Below, piece by piece: positions 19,886 through 31,633 of a stretch of DNA of 41,969 nucleotides; position 1 is the stretch's first letter; each line of letters opens with the position of its first letter. Under the pieces are notes generated by a model. It was not told where the DNA came from, searched no databases, and saw nothing but the letters and a program-made list of their open reading frames with translations. Source of the DNA: Acidobacteriota bacterium (GTDB taxonomy: Bacteria; Acidobacteriota; Thermoanaerobaculia; Multivoradales; Multivoraceae); the NCBI GenBank assembly GCA_026708285.1, contig JAPOVF010000279.1:17880-59848 (forward strand), given 5' to 3'. The position numbers and the translations under genes are program-made.

Positions 19886-20965
19886 CTACCAACGCGGCCG
19901 CGTGCTGACGTAGGCCGGGTCGTTCGTCAGTTGGACGACCTCGCCGGTTTCGATCTCGATCTTCCAGATCTCCCAGTTCCCGGAGCGGTCCGATTCGAAG
20001 ACGATCCAGCGGCCGTCGCGGGAGAACCAGGGGTGGCCGTCGTTCGCGTCGGACACGGTCAGGCGGCGCTGGTTCGAGCCGTCGATGTCGGCCAGGAAGA
20101 TGTCGTCCGTCGGGCCCGTTCGGTTCGTCTGCCAGGCGATCGTCTGGCCGTCGGGTGAGACGGCGGGCCGGCGATGCCGATGATCCCGGTCGGTGAGCGC
20201 GGTGTACGTACCCTGGCCGTAGCCGTCGAAGCGGATGATCGCGATCTCCATTCGCCGTTCGCCGTTCTCGGGCTCGTCTTCGGCCTGGAACAGGACGGCC
20301 CGTCCGAGGCCGACACCGTTGCCAACCGCGAGCGTCGTCGTGTTCGAGGCGTCGATCTGGCGGCGGTCGCTCAGCTCGAGGATCAGGCCCTTGTTGAAGC
20401 CATCGCCCTCAGGACAGTTCCGGGCGTAGACGAGCTGCCGGGTGATCGGCGAGATGCTGGCGTGGTGCACGGCGCAGCCTTCGACTTCGCGTAGCACCTC
20501 GCGCTCGCCGGTCGCGAGGTCTTCGCGGAAGATCCGGGCGCCGGCCTCGACGCCAGCTTCGGCGTCGGTGAACTCGGCGTAGACCACGCTCCTGAGGTCG
20601 AAGGTCAGGGAGGGGTGGTCCAGGTGCTGGGGAACGCCCTTGCGCACCAGGCGCACGCCGCTGCCGTCCCCCTCCATGATCCAGATGTCGGCGCCGCCGT
20701 AGAAGCCGGGGATCGTGGGCGTGGCGCCTGTGTTCGCGAAGCGCTGAAAGACGATCGGCGCCGTGAACTCGGGCTCCGCCGCCGCCGGCGAAGCGCCGGC
20801 ATCCTCGCCTGATGGCGACTCCCCGTTGCCGGCGCAGCCGAGCGCCATCGCCGCGAGAGTCAGAGATGCGACGACGACGGCCGGCGAGTGGTGACGTCCG
20901 ACCGCCCGCGGACGGGCGCTCGGACCGTGACGCTGGTGACGCGCGGACGCGCCACCAGGGTTCAC
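19886..20965 (-). CDS. TolB-like WD40/PD40 beta-propeller lipoprotein
   Basis: Lipobox-like LAAMALGC, PD40 blades (RRPAVSPDGQTIAWQTNRTGPTDDIFLADIDGSNQRRLTVSDANDGHPWFSRDGRWIVFESDRSGNWEIWKI). Confidence 0.85.
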   Translation of the reverse strand: MNPGGASARHQRHGPSARPRAVGRHHSPAVVVASLTLAAMALGCAGNGESPSGEDAGASPAAAEPEFTAPIVFQRFANTGATPTIPGFYGGADIWIMEGDGSGVRLVRKGVPQHLDHPSLTFDLRSVVYAEFTDAEAGVEAGARIFREDLATGEREVLREVEGCAVHHASISPITRQLVYARNCPEGDGFNKGLILELSDRRQIDASNTTTLAVGNGVGLGRAVLFQAEDEPENGERRMEIAIIRFDGYGQGTYTALTDRDHRHRRPAVSPDGQTIAWQTNRTGPTDDIFLADIDGSNQRRLTVSDANDGHPWFSRDGRWIVFESDRSGNWEIWKIEIETGEVVQLTNDPAYVSTRPRW

Positions 20966-22203
20966 TGGCCGGCGGGACCCGCCGGGGTCGCTGCCTTGGC
21001 GGCGGCGCTGTCGGCGGCGACATAGTCGATGAAGCCGATCAGCATCTCGTCCGTCGACTCGGCGCCCCAGGTGACGTCGACCGTCGGGTCCGGGTTGTGG
21101 GGGTTGTCGGCCGAGTTGTCGAACGCAGCCGAGACTTCGATCCGGGTCCCGGCCGGCAACCGGAGCGGTTCGGCCAGGTCGTAGGACGTCTGCCAGTTGA
21201 AGTCGTAGCGACTGACGCTCAGCAACTCCCGCTGCTCGCCGTCGGGCAGGAAGGCGGTGTAGGTCATCGACTTGCCGCGGTAGTGCATGTGGGGCGTGAA
21301 CGAGCGGATCACGACGTCCTCGTCGAAGACGTGGGTCGCCTGCGCCCGGTAGTCCGCTTCACCGGCGGGGATGTGGAACGTGGTGTTCAGGATCCAGAGG
21401 TTGACCAGCTCCCTCTCGACCTCCTCGGGCTCGGCGAACCAGAGGGCGACGCGAGTCCGGTCGGTCGCGGCCTCGCCGTTCGGGTGGTAGTGAAAGTCGC
21501 CGAGCAGATTCTGTCCCTTGGGAAGCAGGCGGCCGGTGCCCGGCGGGAAGTGCTGCGGCGCGAAGCCGGCGGCCCAGGCGCCGACCCAGCCTTCCTGGTC
21601 GGGGTCGTCGTCGTCACCGCGCCACAGGATGAAGTGGTGAAGCACCGAGCGATCGCCGGCCTGGACCTCGATTGCGCGAATCCAGCGATCCTCCTCGAAC
21701 CCGGTCTTGATCGGGATGTCGAGGAACTCGTCCGGTCCGTCGGCGGCGACTTCGTGGGGATCGAACTCGTACACCCAGTCCGGCTCGCCGAACGTCCACT
21801 CGCTGGCCTTCTTCGGCTTCTCGTAGACGGGCTCGTCGCCTTCGCCTCGGGGCGCGCCGTTCGCCGCCCAGCGGGTGATCGCCGCGATCTCGTCGTCGCT
21901 CAGGCTGATGTCGTTCGCCCAAGGTCCGTAGCCCGGGTCGGCGTCCCAGGGCGGCATGTCCCGGTTCTCAACCGCGCGGGCAATGGAGCGCGCCCACGGC
22001 CGCGCCTCGCGGTAGGTCCGCAACGACATCGGTCCGATCTCGTCCGGCTGATGGCAGGAGACGCAGTTGGCGTGGAGGATCGGCGCCACGTCGTCGACGA
22101 ACGTGGGCTGGTCGACGTTCACGCCGCCGGCGATGGCCGGCGCCAGCAGGAGAAGTGCCGTGGAGGCGGCTGCGAGGCGCGTCAGGCGGGAGGCTCGGTT
22201 CAT
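20962..22203 (-). CDS. Secreted heme c plus copper type II ascorbate-dependent monooxygenase-like protein (copy 1)
   Basis: NCVSCHQPDEIGPMSLRTYREARPWA (CxxCH), VLHHFILW, GDFHYHPNG, PHMHYRGK copper-type His motifs. Confidence 0.82.
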   Translation of the reverse strand: MNRASRLTRLAAASTALLLLAPAIAGGVNVDQPTFVDDVAPILHANCVSCHQPDEIGPMSLRTYREARPWARSIARAVENRDMPPWDADPGYGPWANDISLSDDEIAAITRWAANGAPRGEGDEPVYEKPKKASEWTFGEPDWVYEFDPHEVAADGPDEFLDIPIKTGFEEDRWIRAIEVQAGDRSVLHHFILWRGDDDDPDQEGWVGAWAAGFAPQHFPPGTGRLLPKGQNLLGDFHYHPNGEAATDRTRVALWFAEPEEVERELVNLWILNTTFHIPAGEADYRAQATHVFDEDVVIRSFTPHMHYRGKSMTYTAFLPDGEQRELLSVSRYDFNWQTSYDLAEPLRLPAGTRIEVSAAFDNSADNPHNPDPTVDVTWGAESTDEMLIGFIDYVAADSAAAKAATPAGPAGQ

Positions 22204-22277
22204 TCGGTGATCTCCGGAACTGTTCGAGATGTGGCTGGGATTGTAGCCGGGACGCCCCCGCCGTGTTCCGGCCCCTC

Positions 22278-23849
22278 CTAGCCTGTCGGCAGAGTGGCCG
22301 GGGTCTCGTTCTCGGCCGGCGTGCCGACCATCTCGCCCGGCCCCATGTCCATCCGCAGCGTGCCGTCGTCCTGAATGGAACCCTTGAGCTGCATCGTGTT
22401 GCCGGGCGTCTCCGCGGTGGCTGTCACGTTGTTGCCGTCCCAGACGATGTCGACGATCGGTGCCGGCAGGACGAGGGTGCCGAACTGGACGAACCAGCCG
22501 CCCGGGACGCCGCCGCGAGGCAGAAGCATGGCGGTCGGCTCGGGCCCCTGGCCCGGCTGGCGTTGTACGTCGAAGCGCCAGGCTTGGCCGGGATGGGTCT
22601 GGGCCAGTTCGGCCAGCTTGGCGAGCACCGGGCTGGCCGGTTTGGGACTGACGCCCTCGGCGGCCACGAAGTCGACGAATCCGATCAGCATCTCGTCGGT
22701 CGAGTCGGTGCCCCAGGTGACGTCGATCGTCGGGTCGGGGTTGTGAGGGTTGTCGGCCGAGTTGTCCCAGTGCGCGGTGACCTCGATCCGCGTACCGGCC
22801 GGCAGGGCGACCGGCTCGACGAAGTTGTAGCCCGTCTGCCAGTTGAAGTCGTATCGGCTGACGCTGAGCAGGTCCTTTTCGCCGCCATCGGGCAGGTGCG
22901 CGGTGTACCTCATGTCCTTGCCGCGGTAGTGCATGTGGGGAGCCAGCGAGCGGATGACGACGTCCTCGGTGAACACGTGGTTCGCGCGTGCCTCGTAGTC
23001 CGGGTCGCCGGCGGGAATCTTGAACGTGGAGTTCATGACCCAGAGGTTGATCAGTTCCTTCTCGACCTCCTCGGGCTCGGCGAACCAGATGCCGATGCGG
23101 GTCTTGTCGGTCGTGGCCGTGCCGTTGGGGTGATAGTGGAAGTCGCCGAGCAGGTTCTGGCCCGCGGGCAACAGGCGGGCGGTGCCCGGCGGGAACTCGT
23201 TCGGCTTCGCGCCGGCGGCCCAGGCGTCGATCCAGGCGTCCTGGACCTCGCTGTTCGGGGCGGCGCGCCAGAGGATGAAATGGTGAACGACCTCACGGTC
23301 GCCGGGCTGGACCTCGACCGCCTTGATCCAGCGGTCTTCCTCGAAGCCGGTCTCGACCGGAATCACGGCGAACTCGTCGGGCCCGTCGGCAGCGACCTCG
23401 AACGGGTCGAACTCGAAGACCCAGTCCGGCTCGCCGAAAGCCCAGTCGCCGTCGCTTGCCGGAGGCTCGTAGACGGGTTCGTCGCCGTCGCCGCGGGGAG
23501 CGCCGCTGCTTGCCCAGCGGGTGATCGCCTCGATCTCCACGTCGCTCAGGGAGATGTCGTTGGAGAAGGGTCCGAAGCCCGGGTCGGCGTCCCACGGCGG
23601 CATGTCGCGGTTCTCGACCGCCCGGGCGATCGAGCGGGCCCAGGGGCGCACCTCGCGGTAGGTGCGCAGTGACATCGGCGCGATCTCTTCCGGCTGGTGG
23701 CAGGAAGCGCAGTTCTCGTGGAGGATCGGCGCGATGTCGTCGACGAAGGTGGGCCGTTCCAGGTTCAGGGCGTGGCTCGCGGCGGGGATGGCGAGCACCG
23801 CGATGGCGGCGACCATGGGCGCGTGGCGGAGCAGGGGAATCCGGTTCAT
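22278..23849 (-). CDS. Secreted heme c plus copper type II monooxygenase-like protein (copy 2, with about 100 aa C-terminal extension)
   Basis: NCASCHQPEEIAPMSLRTYREVRPWA, VVHHFILW, GDFHYHPNG, PHMHYRGK; clear paralog of 20962-22203. Confidence 0.82.
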   Translation of the reverse strand: MNRIPLLRHAPMVAAIAVLAIPAASHALNLERPTFVDDIAPILHENCASCHQPEEIAPMSLRTYREVRPWARSIARAVENRDMPPWDADPGFGPFSNDISLSDVEIEAITRWASSGAPRGDGDEPVYEPPASDGDWAFGEPDWVFEFDPFEVAADGPDEFAVIPVETGFEEDRWIKAVEVQPGDREVVHHFILWRAAPNSEVQDAWIDAWAAGAKPNEFPPGTARLLPAGQNLLGDFHYHPNGTATTDKTRIGIWFAEPEEVEKELINLWVMNSTFKIPAGDPDYEARANHVFTEDVVIRSLAPHMHYRGKDMRYTAHLPDGGEKDLLSVSRYDFNWQTGYNFVEPVALPAGTRIEVTAHWDNSADNPHNPDPTIDVTWGTDSTDEMLIGFVDFVAAEGVSPKPASPVLAKLAELAQTHPGQAWRFDVQRQPGQGPEPTAMLLPRGGVPGGWFVQFGTLVLPAPIVDIVWDGNNVTATAETPGNTMQLKGSIQDDGTLRMDMGPGEMVGTPAENETPATLPTG

Positions 23850-26552: not shown

Positions 26553-26571
26553 GGACCCCGTCCAGCCGGCG

Positions 26572-27954
26572 ATGAAGGTCTTCCCGGAACTGCTGATCGA
26601 GGATCTGCGCGCGGAGATCGAGCCGGAACGGCTGGGACGTCGGGCGGGAGAGCGGGGCATGCCGCCGCTGAACGCCACGGACGATCCCGGGCAGACAGAG
26701 ATCGAGGAGTTCATCGAGGCGAAGAAGAACGAGGCGGTGAGGATCCGCGACGAGCAGCTCGAACAGGTCGACAACCACCTGGACCAGGTCGACCAGGCGG
26801 TGCTCGCCGGCGACCTGGAATCGTCGGCTCGCAAGGCCGCGACCGAGTTCAGGGAAGTCGAGCAGAGCGAGCTCCAGGCGCTCAAGGCGAGCCTGCACGA
26901 GTTCGAGCGGAAACGGCGGGACTTCTTCGACTTCAAGCACCGCAACGGACTGGACCGCGAGCCGGACTACGTGAGCCAGCGGACGACGCTGTTGCTGGTG
27001 GGTCTGATCGTCCTGTTGTTCGTGATCGAGAGCGGCTTGAACGGCGCCTTCCTGGCCGTCGGCAGCGAGGGCGGTCTGGTGGGCGGATGGGGTCTGGCGC
27101 TGGGCTTCAGCGTCGTCAACCTGGTGCTGCCGGCGCTGTTTTTCGGTCCGGTCAGTCGCTACGTGAGCCACATCCACGTGCTCCTGAGGGCCGTGGGAGT
27201 GCTGGCGGTCCTGGGATGGCTTGCGACCGCCCTCGTGCTCAACCTGGGACTGGCGCACTTCCGGGACGCCTCGGCCGATCTGATCGAGAACATCGGCTCC
27301 GAGGCGCTGAGCCGCTTTCAGGCTTCGCCGCTCGGGCTGCAGGACGCGGAATCGTGGCTTCTCTTCGTGCTCGGCTTCTTCTTCTCCGGGGTCGCCTTCT
27401 TCGACGGCCGGAAGCTGTTCGGCGATTCCTATCCCGGCTACTCCCGGAAGCACCGCAAGATGGAGGAGGCGCGGGCCGACTACGACGACCTCTGGCAGGA
27501 CGTGGTGGAGCAGTTGCGCACGATCCGGGAGGACGGTCTGGACGCGATCCGGCGCACGGCGCACCAGGCGAAGAGCCAGCCGGTCGAGCGGCGGCGCGCG
27601 CTCGAGAGCGAGACGAAACTGCTGGTCGCATTCGAATCCCATGTCGAGCAGTTGCAGCGCTTCGGGACGATGCTGATCGAGGAGTACCGGGAGGCGAACC
27701 GCTCGGTCCGTTTCGACCGCGGTACGCCCGAGGCGTACGGCAGGCCATGGAGGATGGATCCGCCGGTGCCGCACCGGCGGGGCCGGGAGCCGGTTGCGGT
27801 CGAGGACGTCGATCTGGACACCTTGAACGAACAGTACGAGTCGGCACTGGGCCGCGTACACGGGGAGTGGGAACAGACCCGGGCGCGGTTGGACCTCGAG
27901 GGCTCGATGTCCGATCCGGCGGAGTCCCTTTCAACGAATGGCGGCAGCTCGTAG
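26572..27954 (+). CDS. Hypothetical membrane protein: soluble N-terminus, about 4 TM helices, helical C-terminus (cassette gene 1)
   Basis: Hydrophobic segments TLLLVGLIVLLFVIESGL, GLALGFSVVNLVLPALFF, LLRAVGVLAVLGWLATALVLN, WLLFVLGFFFSGVAFF; charged helical flanks. Confidence 0.75.
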   Translation: MKVFPELLIEDLRAEIEPERLGRRAGERGMPPLNATDDPGQTEIEEFIEAKKNEAVRIRDEQLEQVDNHLDQVDQAVLAGDLESSARKAATEFREVEQSELQALKASLHEFERKRRDFFDFKHRNGLDREPDYVSQRTTLLLVGLIVLLFVIESGLNGAFLAVGSEGGLVGGWGLALGFSVVNLVLPALFFGPVSRYVSHIHVLLRAVGVLAVLGWLATALVLNLGLAHFRDASADLIENIGSEALSRFQASPLGLQDAESWLLFVLGFFFSGVAFFDGRKLFGDSYPGYSRKHRKMEEARADYDDLWQDVVEQLRTIREDGLDAIRRTAHQAKSQPVERRRALESETKLLVAFESHVEQLQRFGTMLIEEYREANRSVRFDRGTPEAYGRPWRMDPPVPHRRGREPVAVEDVDLDTLNEQYESALGRVHGEWEQTRARLDLEGSMSDPAESLSTNGGSS

Positions 27955-28783
27955 ACGGCGGCGCCGCCGTTCGCGGCGGGGTGATCTCTCGCCGCGGGAT
28001 CTGGCAATCGGCGGCGGTATCGCGGTCACGGTACTCGTGCTGCTTGTCGTTGCCGCGCGCTTCACGGTGTTCGCCCCGAAGCCGCCGGATCGTGACCCCG
28101 AGACTGGTTGTCCCGACGCCGGCCCCGCGGCCCTGACCGCGATCCTGGTCGATGTCACGGACCAGGTCGGCGCGATCAGCCGCGCCGACGTGCTCGCGCA
28201 CCTCGACGAGTACGTCGCGGACAGCCGGGAGGACGAGATGGTCCTTGCCTATGAGGCGAAGCCGGTGGGGGACGAAATCGGGGCCCCGCTGCTCTCGGTC
28301 TGCCATCCCGGCGATCCCGACGAGGCCAGCGAGTGGACGGAGAACCCGCGGTTGATCCGGCGACGCCTGGAGGAACGGTTCGAGCAGCCGCTCGATCGTC
28401 TCTTCGCCGAGTTGCTCGGCCGGGATGCCGCGCCGACTTCGCCGCTCATGGAGAGCGTGCAGAGCGTGGCGGTTTCCGTTCTTGGCCGGCACGAGTACGC
28501 GGACCTTCCGAAGCGTCTGATCCTGGTTTCCGACCTGATGCAGAACACGCGCAACCTCTCCTTCTTCCGCCAGGCGGTCGACTACGACGCCTTCGCCGCG
28601 ACGAACGGCGCCGGCGCGCTGCGCACCGACCTTCGGGGAACCGCGGTCGAGGTCCTGTTCGTGCAGCGCACGGCCCACCAGCGTCTGGACGGCACCCGCG
28701 GCCTGATCGACTTTTGGCAGCAGTGGATCGAGGACCAGGGAGGCACCCTGAATCGGGTCGTGCGCGTCGACGGCGTGAACTGA
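27938..28783 (+). CDS. Hypothetical membrane-anchored protein with VWA-like extracytoplasmic domain (cassette gene 2)
   Basis: Arg-rich N-terminus (AARRRRRRRSRRG), TM IAVTVLVLLVVAARFTVF, strand ALTAILVDVTDQV and strand KRLILVSDLMQN reminiscent of VWA beta1/beta4; overlaps gene 1 by 17 nt. Confidence 0.7.
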   Translation: MAAARRRRRRRSRRGDLSPRDLAIGGGIAVTVLVLLVVAARFTVFAPKPPDRDPETGCPDAGPAALTAILVDVTDQVGAISRADVLAHLDEYVADSREDEMVLAYEAKPVGDEIGAPLLSVCHPGDPDEASEWTENPRLIRRRLEERFEQPLDRLFAELLGRDAAPTSPLMESVQSVAVSVLGRHEYADLPKRLILVSDLMQNTRNLSFFRQAVDYDAFAATNGAGALRTDLRGTAVEVLFVQRTAHQRLDGTRGLIDFWQQWIEDQGGTLNRVVRVDGVN

Positions 28784-29976
28784 TGCCCGTCGACTCGCGG
28801 CAACGGTCGATGGATGCCGAGCCGCGGAGCGGCCGTGGACTGTTCCTGGCGTTCTTCGTCGGCGGGGGTTTCCTCATCCTGTTGATGAAGTCGTTGACGG
28901 CCAGCCCGCTTCTGGCCGTTGTGCTGCCGGTCGTCCTGATGGGCAGCTACGCCTGCCTGCTCGTGGAGTGGCCGGACCTGCGGCCGAGGTACGACTTCGC
29001 GGGCGACAACTTCTACTACCTGGGCTTTCTCTACACGCTGATCTCGCTGGCCATCTCGCTGTACCAGTTCAACACCGAGGGGGCGACGAGCTCCATCATC
29101 ACGAACTTCGGTCTGGCGCTGACCAGCACGATCCTCGGCCTGGCCGGACGCATCCTCCTGAACCAGCCGCGGGACGAGGAAGAGGTCGAAGCGCGGGCGC
29201 GCGAAGACCTGGCCCGGGCGAACCGCCGCCTGCGGGCCGAGATGGAGTACTCGATCGACGAGTTCCAGCAGTTCCGCGTGGAAGCGAAGCGCGTGTTCGA
29301 GCAGCTCGACCGGGGCGTAGCCGCCGCGGGCGCCGCGCTGGAACGGCAGCTCGAACACCTGGAGAGCGGCGCCGCCCGGTTCGGGGCGCTCCGGCAGCGC
29401 GTCGCCGCGGTCGATGAGGCCGCGGCCGAGGCGGTTCACGACATCCAGGCGCAACGGGAGCGCTTCGTCTCCGAGTCGCAGGCTGTGAGCAACTCCCTTC
29501 AGCAACTGCTCGCGAACTTCCGTTCCGTCGACTTCCGGCGGGAGTTCATCGAGGAGTTGATCGAACCGACGTCGCAGCAGTTCCGTGGCCTGGCGCGGGA
29601 GTTCCTGTCCGTCGCGGAGGGTCTTCGGCGCATCGAGACGAGCCAGCTGCGGGTCTTGGAGCAGAACCAGAGCGCGGTGGCGCGGCTGACGGAGATCCTC
29701 GAAGAGAACCGCCGCTTCTCCCAGGCGAACGCCCGGGCGGCGAACGGCTTCCGGTACGCGACCGATGCCCTGGTTTCTCTGCGGGCGCAGATCGACCGGT
29801 ACAGCGAAGGAACGCGGGCGGTCGTCGGCGAACTGGCGGCCGCGCGGCGCCAGCTACACGACGCGCCGGAGCGGCTGGAAGCGATGAACAGGTCGCTGCT
29901 ACGCATGGCGGACCGACTCGACACCGTCGCGGAGGATGGCGGCCGGCGGCGCGAGTTGCAGCGCTGGGGTCTCTGA
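28783..29976 (+). CDS. MotA/TolQ/ZorA-like membrane protein with long cytoplasmic coiled coil (cassette gene 3)
   Basis: Four TM segments including FYYLGFLYTLISLAISLYQF and IITNFGLALTSTILGLAGRILL, then about 250 aa heptad-rich tail; 1-nt stop/start overlap with gene 2. Confidence 0.6.
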   Translation: MPVDSRQRSMDAEPRSGRGLFLAFFVGGGFLILLMKSLTASPLLAVVLPVVLMGSYACLLVEWPDLRPRYDFAGDNFYYLGFLYTLISLAISLYQFNTEGATSSIITNFGLALTSTILGLAGRILLNQPRDEEEVEARAREDLARANRRLRAEMEYSIDEFQQFRVEAKRVFEQLDRGVAAAGAALERQLEHLESGAARFGALRQRVAAVDEAAAEAVHDIQAQRERFVSESQAVSNSLQQLLANFRSVDFRREFIEELIEPTSQQFRGLAREFLSVAEGLRRIETSQLRVLEQNQSAVARLTEILEENRRFSQANARAANGFRYATDALVSLRAQIDRYSEGTRAVVGELAAARRQLHDAPERLEAMNRSLLRMADRLDTVAEDGGRRRELQRWGL

Positions 29977-30755
29977 TGATGGAGCGCGGCCGGACGTTCC
30001 CGCGCGGCCTGGTCCTTGGCTTGACGATGGCCGAGATCGCGATTCTGATCATCTTCGTCCTGCTGCTCGCCCTGGCCGCCCTGCTCGCGCGCGAGGCGGA
30101 CCGGCGGCAGGCCGCCGAGCGGGAACTCGTCCGCTTCGAGCAGATCGCCGCCCTGTTCGAGGAGGAGGCGCTTCCGGAGGACCCGATGGCGCTCAAAGCG
30201 GTGCTGCGGGAGCGCGTGGATACACACCGGGACGCCGACAGTTGGCGGGAGCTCGTGCGCGAGGTCGAGACGACGCCGGGCGCGCTGCGGGAGATGGCCG
30301 AAGCGATGAACGCGGCCGCACGCGCGGGCATGTCGCCGGTGGAGGTCCGGGAGGCGATCGAAAGCCGGCAGGTCGGTGGCGGCACGGACCATCCGAGCTG
30401 CTGGTACGACCGTGACGGCACGGTCGCCTACCTCTTCGATGTAGCTCTCATAGCCCGTGGTTTCGTGGTGGATTTGGCTCGGGCTCCTCAGCATGAGGCC
30501 GAGCGCGCTCTGCTGCCCCTGGACCTCGTGCAGACCGAAAGCGTCGTCTCCCAGGCCCAGTTCCTCCGGCAGACCCGACCGGTGTACGAGTGGAGCGTCG
30601 AACGGGGGTGCCGGTTCTTCGTTCGCGCCTTCGATCTGACGGCCGCCGATCAGAAGGACCTCTACAAGCGCCGGATGCGCGTGCTCGAGTCCCGGTTCTA
30701 CAAGAACGCGAACCCCACCGGCGGCCTGCCGGCAGGTCTTCGCGCCGCACGCTGA
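29976..30755 (+). CDS. MotB/TolR/ZorB-like single-TM protein (cassette gene 4)
   Basis: N-terminal TM GLTMAEIAILIIFVLLLALAALLAREADRR, then coiled coil and a non-OmpA-looking C-terminal domain (PSCWYDRDGTVAYLFDV...GCRFFVRAFDLT); 1-nt overlap with gene 3. Confidence 0.6.
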   Translation: MMERGRTFPRGLVLGLTMAEIAILIIFVLLLALAALLAREADRRQAAERELVRFEQIAALFEEEALPEDPMALKAVLRERVDTHRDADSWRELVREVETTPGALREMAEAMNAAARAGMSPVEVREAIESRQVGGGTDHPSCWYDRDGTVAYLFDVALIARGFVVDLARAPQHEAERALLPLDLVQTESVVSQAQFLRQTRPVYEWSVERGCRFFVRAFDLTAADQKDLYKRRMRVLESRFYKNANPTGGLPAGLRAAR

Positions 30756-30784
30756 AAACGGGTTCCACGCCCGGCGGAGTGGCG

Positions 30785-31633
30785 CTACCTCGGGTACTCG
30801 GCGAAACAGGGAACGCTCTCGTCGAGCGCGCTCCACGGCGCCCTGGAGCCGACGAAGATGTTCACGGCCGGCTTGACTCCCGGGTCGGCGTCCAGCGAGC
30901 CGGCTGGAATCTGCATCCCACCGGGATCCCGGAGCCGGGGAACCAGGCTTCCGCAGTGCCGGCAGAACGCGGTGCCCTTGATGTCCGCTTCCGGCATCTT
31001 GTAGTCGACGACCGCGTCCCGGCCGCCCAGCCATCGGAAGGCGTCCTCCGCGGCGAAGACGAACGTGCCATAGGCGGCGCTCGTCTGGTGGCGGCACCGG
31101 GAGCAGTGGCAGTTCACCATGCGATCCGGTGGGCCGTCGAACTCGTAGGTCACGGCGCCGCAGAGGCAGCTTCCCGGGATGGCGCCGTGCGTCTGGGCCT
31201 CCCGGACGGGTTGCTCGATGCCGGGCGGAGCACCCCACTCCGGCGGATACTCGTCGTGCTGGGCCAGATCGTCGACGATCGTGTGCCAGGGCGCCTTCGA
31301 GCCGGCGAAGATGTGAAGCGTGGGCCGGATGCCGGGATCCTCGGCGACGCTGCCCATCGTGACGAGGGAGACGGAGCCGCCCTCGGGGTTGGCCGGCACG
31401 CCGGAACCGCAGCGCGGGCAGAAGTGCCGGACTCCGTGCGGCGAGGACTGGTAGTGGACGATCTGGTCAGCGCCGCGGGTCCAGCGGAAGAACTTCGGGT
31501 CGACCGCGCCGAAGGTGGCGTACGCGGAACCGTGGAACTTCCTGCACACAGAACAATGGCAGTGGGCGATCTCGATCAGATCGCCGTCGACCTCGAATGT
31601 GACGTCACCGCAGAGACAGGCGCCCGTGAGCAT
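30785..31633 (-). CDS. Tandem-domain GFA (CENP-V/GFA) family protein
   Basis: Two copies of the CxCGxVTYE...NCHCSxCRxxxGSAYxTF...FCxxCGSxVP pattern in one ORF. Confidence 0.9.
   Translation of the reverse strand: MLTGACLCGDVTFEVDGDLIEIAHCHCSVCRKFHGSAYATFGAVDPKFFRWTRGADQIVHYQSSPHGVRHFCPRCGSGVPANPEGGSVSLVTMGSVAEDPGIRPTLHIFAGSKAPWHTIVDDLAQHDEYPPEWGAPPGIEQPVREAQTHGAIPGSCLCGAVTYEFDGPPDRMVNCHCSRCRHQTSAAYGTFVFAAEDAFRWLGGRDAVVDYKMPEADIKGTAFCRHCGSLVPRLRDPGGMQIPAGSLDADPGVKPAVNIFVGSRAPWSALDESVPCFAEYPR

Follow-up and report, generated by a model that had tools for sequence, protein, structure and literature searches.

Introduction

What work might be done by four tightly packed genes of an Acidobacteriota bacterium, two of which look like the halves of an ion-driven stator and none of which has a product that can be named? 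The question touches on a wider one, as for Zorya it is still open by what means the rotary stator confers immunity and what links the motor to the nuclease. Within the window (the whole stretch of DNA analysed, 41,969 nucleotides), the original prediction took the four genes for a stator-type module with two unfamiliar partners, a description now supported by a ZorA-like fold, by co-conservation of the genes and by the lack of a match to any annotated system. The cassette, which looks like a miniature ion-driven motor related to Zorya, is in most of its relatives paired or even fused with an exported DNA-cutting enzyme, and it is therefore a good candidate for an anti-virus device not yet described. 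No description of it was found in the literature searched, which covered neither subscription papers nor most preprints.

Results

Four overlapping genes without an annotated counterpart

The four overlapping open reading frames on the forward strand at 26572-30755 (Table 1) lie exactly where they had been predicted, with overlaps of 17 nt between genes 1 and 2 and of 1 nt (TGATG) at both the gene 2/gene 3 and the gene 3/gene 4 junctions. Each is a genuine gene according to the list of reading frames and comparison with homologues; that they are real genes follows from the conservation of the gene 3 protein, which is 79-94% identical among genomes of the same genus and has a second form, about 40% identical, in other genomes. 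The claim that no product could be named also stood: none of the four proteins (0/4) scored above the cut-off of any Pfam, NCBIfam, PADLOC or PHROG model, the searches returning coiled-coil noise and sub-cut-off matches only. The host genome is a 5.0 Mb draft, in which the locus is chromosomal and stable with metabolic genes on both sides, and a scan with the gene 3 transmembrane (TM) motif found a near-identical cassette protein in Acidobacteriota metagenome-assembled genomes named Holophagales, Thermoanaerobaculia or Vicinamibacteraceae. Elsewhere in the window (20962-23849, reverse strand), two adjoining paralogous genes for secreted proteins appear by eye to be of a CxxC type resembling copper monooxygenases.

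Table 1. Features of the window, and defence loci found beside the cassette in other genomes
Feature	Position or locus	Strand	Description
Gene 1	26572..27954	+	460 aa; coiled-coil N-terminus, four TM segments, coiled-coil C-terminus; conserved partner
Gene 2	27938..28783	+	281 aa; Arg-rich N-terminus, one TM (aa 19-44), VWA/I-domain-like fold
Gene 3	28783..29976	+	397 aa; MotA/ZorA-type stator subunit (probable), 4 TM helices and ~260 aa coiled-coil tail
Gene 3 signature GDNxYYxGFxxTLxSL...FGxAxxSTxxGxxxR	29002..29151	+	TM3/TM4; alignments of 42-46 sequences
Gene 4	29976..30755	+	259 aa; MotB/ZorB-like; single TM, coil, variable periplasmic domain
Glu20 codon, gene 4 TM	30033..30035	+	Invariant in alignment; putative ion-carrying residue
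Gene 4 alternative C-terminal domain (CW...YxFDVxL...CRFFV...)	30375..30752	+	Replaces OmpA; from alignment
Junction gene 4/GFA gene	30756..30784		SNase gene here in several same-genus relatives (L041, L033, L034, L037); absent in window
GFA gene	30785-31633	-	Downstream of gene 4
Thoeris	L102		Directly upstream of cassette
Short Argonaute with TIR-APAZ	L076
HerA-DUF4297	L107
PDC-S06	L045
SngA	L084
Type II methyltransferase	L056

Genes 3 and 4 resemble a stator pair

The AlphaFold model of the gene 3 product has helices at residues 16-38, 42-62, 70-95 and 102-126 followed by a helical coil at 132-394, in agreement with the four TM helices and coiled coil first read from the letters. The likeness of its last two TM helices to TM3/TM4 of MotA, TolQ, ExbB and ZorA finds a counterpart in the fold: among solved structures, the type II ZorAB complex (8vvi_C) gave the highest Foldseek probability (0.97, but E 0.76), with a TM score of 0.67 by target length and an rmsd of 3.0 over 84 columns, and MotA/PomA were also among the matches, at low probability. 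At the structural level alone, then, the predicted model would give gene 3 what is expected of a ZorA-type subunit, a MotA/ExbB TM core with a long helical tail.

The sequence kinship appears weak when searched for directly. Gene 3 scored 11 bits against Pfam MotA_ExbB (cut-off 22.9), 9.8 and 8.4 bits against the NCBIfam ZorA models (cut-offs 250 and 700) and at best 18.5 bits against PADLOC ZorA, a match placed on the coiled coil and below the family cut-off; in profile searches of PDB, the full alignment was overwhelmed by coiled coils, and the TM core by itself had no significant match. By hhalign, a narrow gene 3 profile did not match TolQ/ExbB, but a profile broadened with distant members aligned to TM2-TM3 of TolQ/ExbB with G-F-x-x-T in register (P 0.0085) and to ZorA2 with a score of 20.4 (P 0.0096), 40 shuffles reaching at most 14.8. 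We consider this profile support to be modest but consistent. Across 46 sequences the gene 3 signature is invariant or nearly so, and the positions of the invariant T85, S88 and T116 resemble the polar ring of MotA/ExbB/ZorA. In 5:2 stators generally, a pentameric ring surrounds a dimeric axle whose acidic residue faces a ring of Thr/Ser, and these three residues together with Glu20 of gene 4 would fit such a pattern. Two variants deserve mention on their own: gene 3 is seemingly split by a frameshift, through assembly error or decay, in two same-genus copies (L013/L021 of G007, and L041), and the Vicinamibacterales version (L048:9812-13765) has a very long gene 3 product in pieces of 1002 and 312 aa.

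Gene 4 opens, as anticipated, with a single N-terminal TM helix of the MotB/TolR/ZorB type, and its motif RGLxLGLTMAE ends in Glu in 81 of 82 homologues, the remaining one being a frame-broken fragment. The corresponding acid is Asp in MotB, TolR and ZorB. A Pfam OmpA domain follows in 20 of 30 relatives and matches PomB in PDB (E 8e-6). Members of the window's genus have in its place the alternative domain of Table 1, as do Legionella, Sphingomonas and further distant relatives; this domain has two conserved Cys and is seen in sequences L137, L150, L151 and L155. The original layout of gene 4 therefore needs amending, as the window copy is without the usual OmpA domain; the claim of a stator pair itself is supported, and that genes 3 and 4 form a MotAB/ZorAB-like pair we regard as highly probable.

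Genes 1 and 2 are constant partners

Gene 1, present at 85 of 85 loci and with many invariant residues in a 31-sequence alignment, has no Pfam, NCBIfam or PADLOC family and no relative in a profile search of PDB; its reading as a 4-TM coiled-coil protein agrees with four TM segments that appear evident from the sequence. Gene 2 had been called VWA-like, and the AlphaFold model (pLDDT 90.8) does have a Rossmann-like VWA/integrin I-domain fold: of the 54 PDB entries that a structure search matched at E<=1e-3, most are VWA/I domains. A profile search by sequence found no relative in PDB. Its alignments contain invariant Cys58 and Cys122 and a degenerate MIDAS (D72, D75), and the domain is probably periplasmic.

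Distant gene 1-gene 2 pairs also occur. Those at L140-L149 lack recognisable genes 3 and 4 and have housekeeping neighbours such as ileS and tatABC, from which the pair may be judged capable of an independent existence; another (L139:1076-4948) lies immediately 5' of a gene for a T4SS coupling protein (VirD4/TraD). A diverged five-gene version (L146:5143-9796) has an extra gene, for a 268-aa protein, after gene 2 and ahead of the stator-like genes. This protein looked TIR-like by eye (ADLVIANITT motif), an assignment for which family scans gave no match, and tblastn of plasmids with the divergent gene 4 of L146 likewise gave none.

The four genes travel together

The expectation that the four genes would be inherited as a set was borne out strictly. 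With home-made HMMs, genes 1-2-3-4 were found on one strand and in constant order at 85 of 85 loci spanning Acidobacteriota, Alphaproteobacteria and Legionella, contig ends and frame breaks aside; searching GTDB genomes for the TM motif of gene 3 gave 201 relatives, of which 80 were kept. Pairwise protein distances among the four genes correlate at 0.87-0.94, a level reached by none of 500 permutations: the genes co-evolve. The order is identical in five annotated regions, four of which have gene 4 annotated as an OmpA family protein, and all four genes can be recognised in another phylum with order and strand unchanged. Plasmid searches with gene 2 and with gene 3 returned 24 records each, with identical genus counts. 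Phage records gave no match to the cassette. The cassette is complete on three putatively viral IMG/VR contigs (L211, L212, L213), two of which also have SNase genes close to it.

Within the window's genus, 19 of 21 genomes have the cassette. In G006, a genome without it, similarity to the window stops at 26554, 18 nt upstream of gene 1. Outside the genus the distribution is patchy, with one sampled genome among the 297 Acidobacteriota searched, 16 of 386 from the class that includes Bradyrhizobium, and 8 of 369 from that of Legionella, where several of the matches are remote gene 2 relatives only.

The 19 occurrences in the genus, amid ordinary metabolic genes, suggest a stable, housekeeping-like role there. 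The cassette might then be a Tol/Ton-like motor for envelope maintenance or trans-envelope transport, in which ion flow through genes 3 and 4 would drive the periplasmic VWA and OmpA domains, so that the wall is remodelled or a substrate moved, with the nuclease gene described below a mere passenger. Near-universality in the genus, at a single chromosomal position among metabolic genes, speaks for such a motor, the periplasmic VWA and peptidoglycan-binding OmpA domains would suit it, and a PBP1A gene adjoins the cassette in Rhizobium pRL11. The patchiness outside the genus argues against it, as do two further observations given below, and we consider it unlikely.

An exported nuclease is the most frequent neighbour

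The gene most often found beside the cassette encodes an SNase (thermonuclease). With lineages delimited at 70% gene 2 identity, 23 of 37 have an SNase gene no more than 3 kb from the cassette, in four arrangements that differ in side (upstream or downstream) and in strand. The background density is 46 SNase genes in 16 genomes, or ~2.9 per genome; by our own calculation, less than 1% of loci would therefore be expected to have one that close by chance. Neighbouring and fused SNases pass the cut-off of Pfam PF00565, and nearly all neighbouring ones retain the RxxGxDxPE motif of that family; 52 of 55 begin with a hydrophobic segment, from which we predict export. SNase distances track those of the cassette (r 0.67-0.72). 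In two loci the nuclease is fused to gene 4 as a TM-OmpA-SNase polypeptide with the SNase at the C-terminus (L153:4795-6429, reverse strand; L154:10341-11807, forward strand), both SNase domains being above the Pfam cut-off, an architecture for which no description in a stator cassette was found in the literature searched. Such linkage and fusion are hard to account for if the SNase were the passenger of an envelope motor.

That no nuclease is adjacent, as first stated, holds for the window, whose own genome has no SNase anywhere, and fails for most relatives. A close relative (L032) is also without an SNase at the junction with the GFA gene, and a nearby SNase is missing in about a third of lineages. 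The SNases that several other members of the genus have at this junction belong to a different subgroup, which suggests a second, independent association.

A nuclease that is exported and fused to gene 4 could also serve the motor-driven processing or uptake of external DNA, for nutrition or transformation, in which the periplasmic enzyme would trim the DNA and the stator power its movement or positioning. A ComEC gene ~6 kb from the cassette in Microvirga and the VirD4/TraD gene adjoining a distant gene 1-gene 2 pair are in keeping with this. No competence gene such as a pilin is prominent among the recurrent neighbours, however, and defence genes are commoner there, making this second alternative quite improbable in our judgement.

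Defence genes flank the cassette in Alphaproteobacteria

The flanks of 15 loci, almost all from Alphaproteobacteria, were represented by 150 ORFs chosen by a simple codon-composition rule. These matched 73 PADLOC models at E<=1e-15, whereas 150 ORFs taken at random regions of those genomes, controls that are unmatched for accessory regions in general, matched 7; the number of models exceeds that of proteins because several models can match one protein. The matches include ThsA/ThsB, pAgo with TIR-APAZ, HerA, PDC-S06 and a methyltransferase, defence loci were confirmed in at least 6 of the 15 regions (Table 1), and integrases and IS66 transposases are also found in the flanks. The alphaproteobacterial flanks are enriched in known defence systems; the neighbours of the cassette in the window are metabolic genes. 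Flanks so rich in defence genes also speak against an envelope motor. The recurrent neighbours of the cassette are SNase and DUF4236, the gene for the latter overlapping or abutting gene 4 at L058:6452-7651 and about 15 other Mesorhizobium/Sinorhizobium loci.

Discussion

The reading we prefer is that of an ion-driven stator working with a periplasmic SNase-type nuclease, most likely against phage or other foreign DNA, to which we assign a probability of roughly 0.55. A defence role for the cassette, taken by itself, seems probable to us. The window genome free of SNase, the near-constant presence of the cassette amid metabolic genes in that genus, the lineages without a nearby SNase, the weak direct similarity of gene 3 to MotA/ExbB/ZorA and the distant gene 1-gene 2 pairs without a stator speak against the preferred reading.

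We propose a mechanism modelled on that of ZorAB (PMC11890865). Gene 3 would form a MotA/ZorA-type ring in the inner membrane with its coiled-coil tail in the cytoplasm, and gene 4 a MotB/ZorB-type axle extending into the periplasm, perhaps in a ratio of 5:2, with the membrane coiled-coil protein of gene 1 and the periplasmic VWA protein of gene 2 as constant partners. The envelope-facing OmpA or Cys domain of gene 4 and the VWA domain of gene 2 might sense or anchor at the cell wall. Let us assume that ions flowing through the pore bring about a conformational or rotary change. Then, the signal perhaps would pass from the motor to the periplasmic SNase, encoded by a neighbouring gene or fused to gene 4, and the nuclease under this control would cut DNA as it crosses the envelope. 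More tentatively still, one might picture an immune machine not described before, whose ion-driven stator, equipped with a VWA sensor, would guide a nuclease anchored to peptidoglycan, so that phage or plasmid DNA is destroyed in the periplasm before reaching the cytoplasm; we would regard this version as possible rather than probable.

If the preferred reading is right, the cassette, which occurs in many rhizobia and in Acidobacteriota, would represent a second, separately built stator-based defence, one with extracytoplasmic DNA cutting. The coupling of motor to nuclease would here be visible in the genes themselves, as axle and nuclease are sometimes one polypeptide with the nuclease on the periplasmic side.

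Comparison with known systems

Like TolQR/ExbBD, the cassette has a polar Thr pattern in TM3/TM4 (G-F-x-x-T ... T) of its ring subunit; gene 3 differs in having four TM helices, not three, and a long tail, there is no TolA/TonB-like gene, and genes 1 and 2 are without a Tol/Ton counterpart. With MotAB/PomAB it shares a 4-TM subunit paired with a single-TM subunit bearing an OmpA domain that matches PomB, but gene 3 lacks the large cytoplasmic TM2-TM3 loop and has a long C-terminal coil. A flagellar MotAB stator is not supported: the MotA_ExbB score is below its cut-off, and no flagellar genes lie beside the cassette in annotated relatives.

The closest comparison is with Zorya types I and II (ZorA5B2; PMC11890865), where defence requires peptidoglycan binding, the ZorA tail and the ZorB TM Asp (PMC11890865). 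Both have a MotA-like subunit with a long cytoplasmic helical tail, a MotB-like subunit with a TM acid and an OmpA/peptidoglycan-binding domain, a nuclease partner and other defence genes nearby. These likenesses, and weak PADLOC ZorA matches that take in the TM region, could be explained by a divergent true Zorya whose usual effectors have been replaced. We nevertheless find this very unlikely: the axle acid is Glu, not Asp, the window's gene 4 has no OmpA domain, unlike ZorB, two additional membrane proteins (4-TM coiled-coil and periplasmic VWA) are obligatory, the partner enzyme is an SNase, exported or fused to gene 4, where the nuclease of Zorya is cytoplasmic, no ZorC, ZorD or ZorE is among the PADLOC matches of the checked neighbours, and the ZorA matches fall under the family cut-offs. 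Because axle acid, effectors and scores against the curated ZorA/ZorB models all fail, the cassette is not filed as Zorya. On the preferred reading of a stator paired with a periplasmic nuclease, it would work like Zorya, a kind of stator-based defence that is already known, and be distinct from it.
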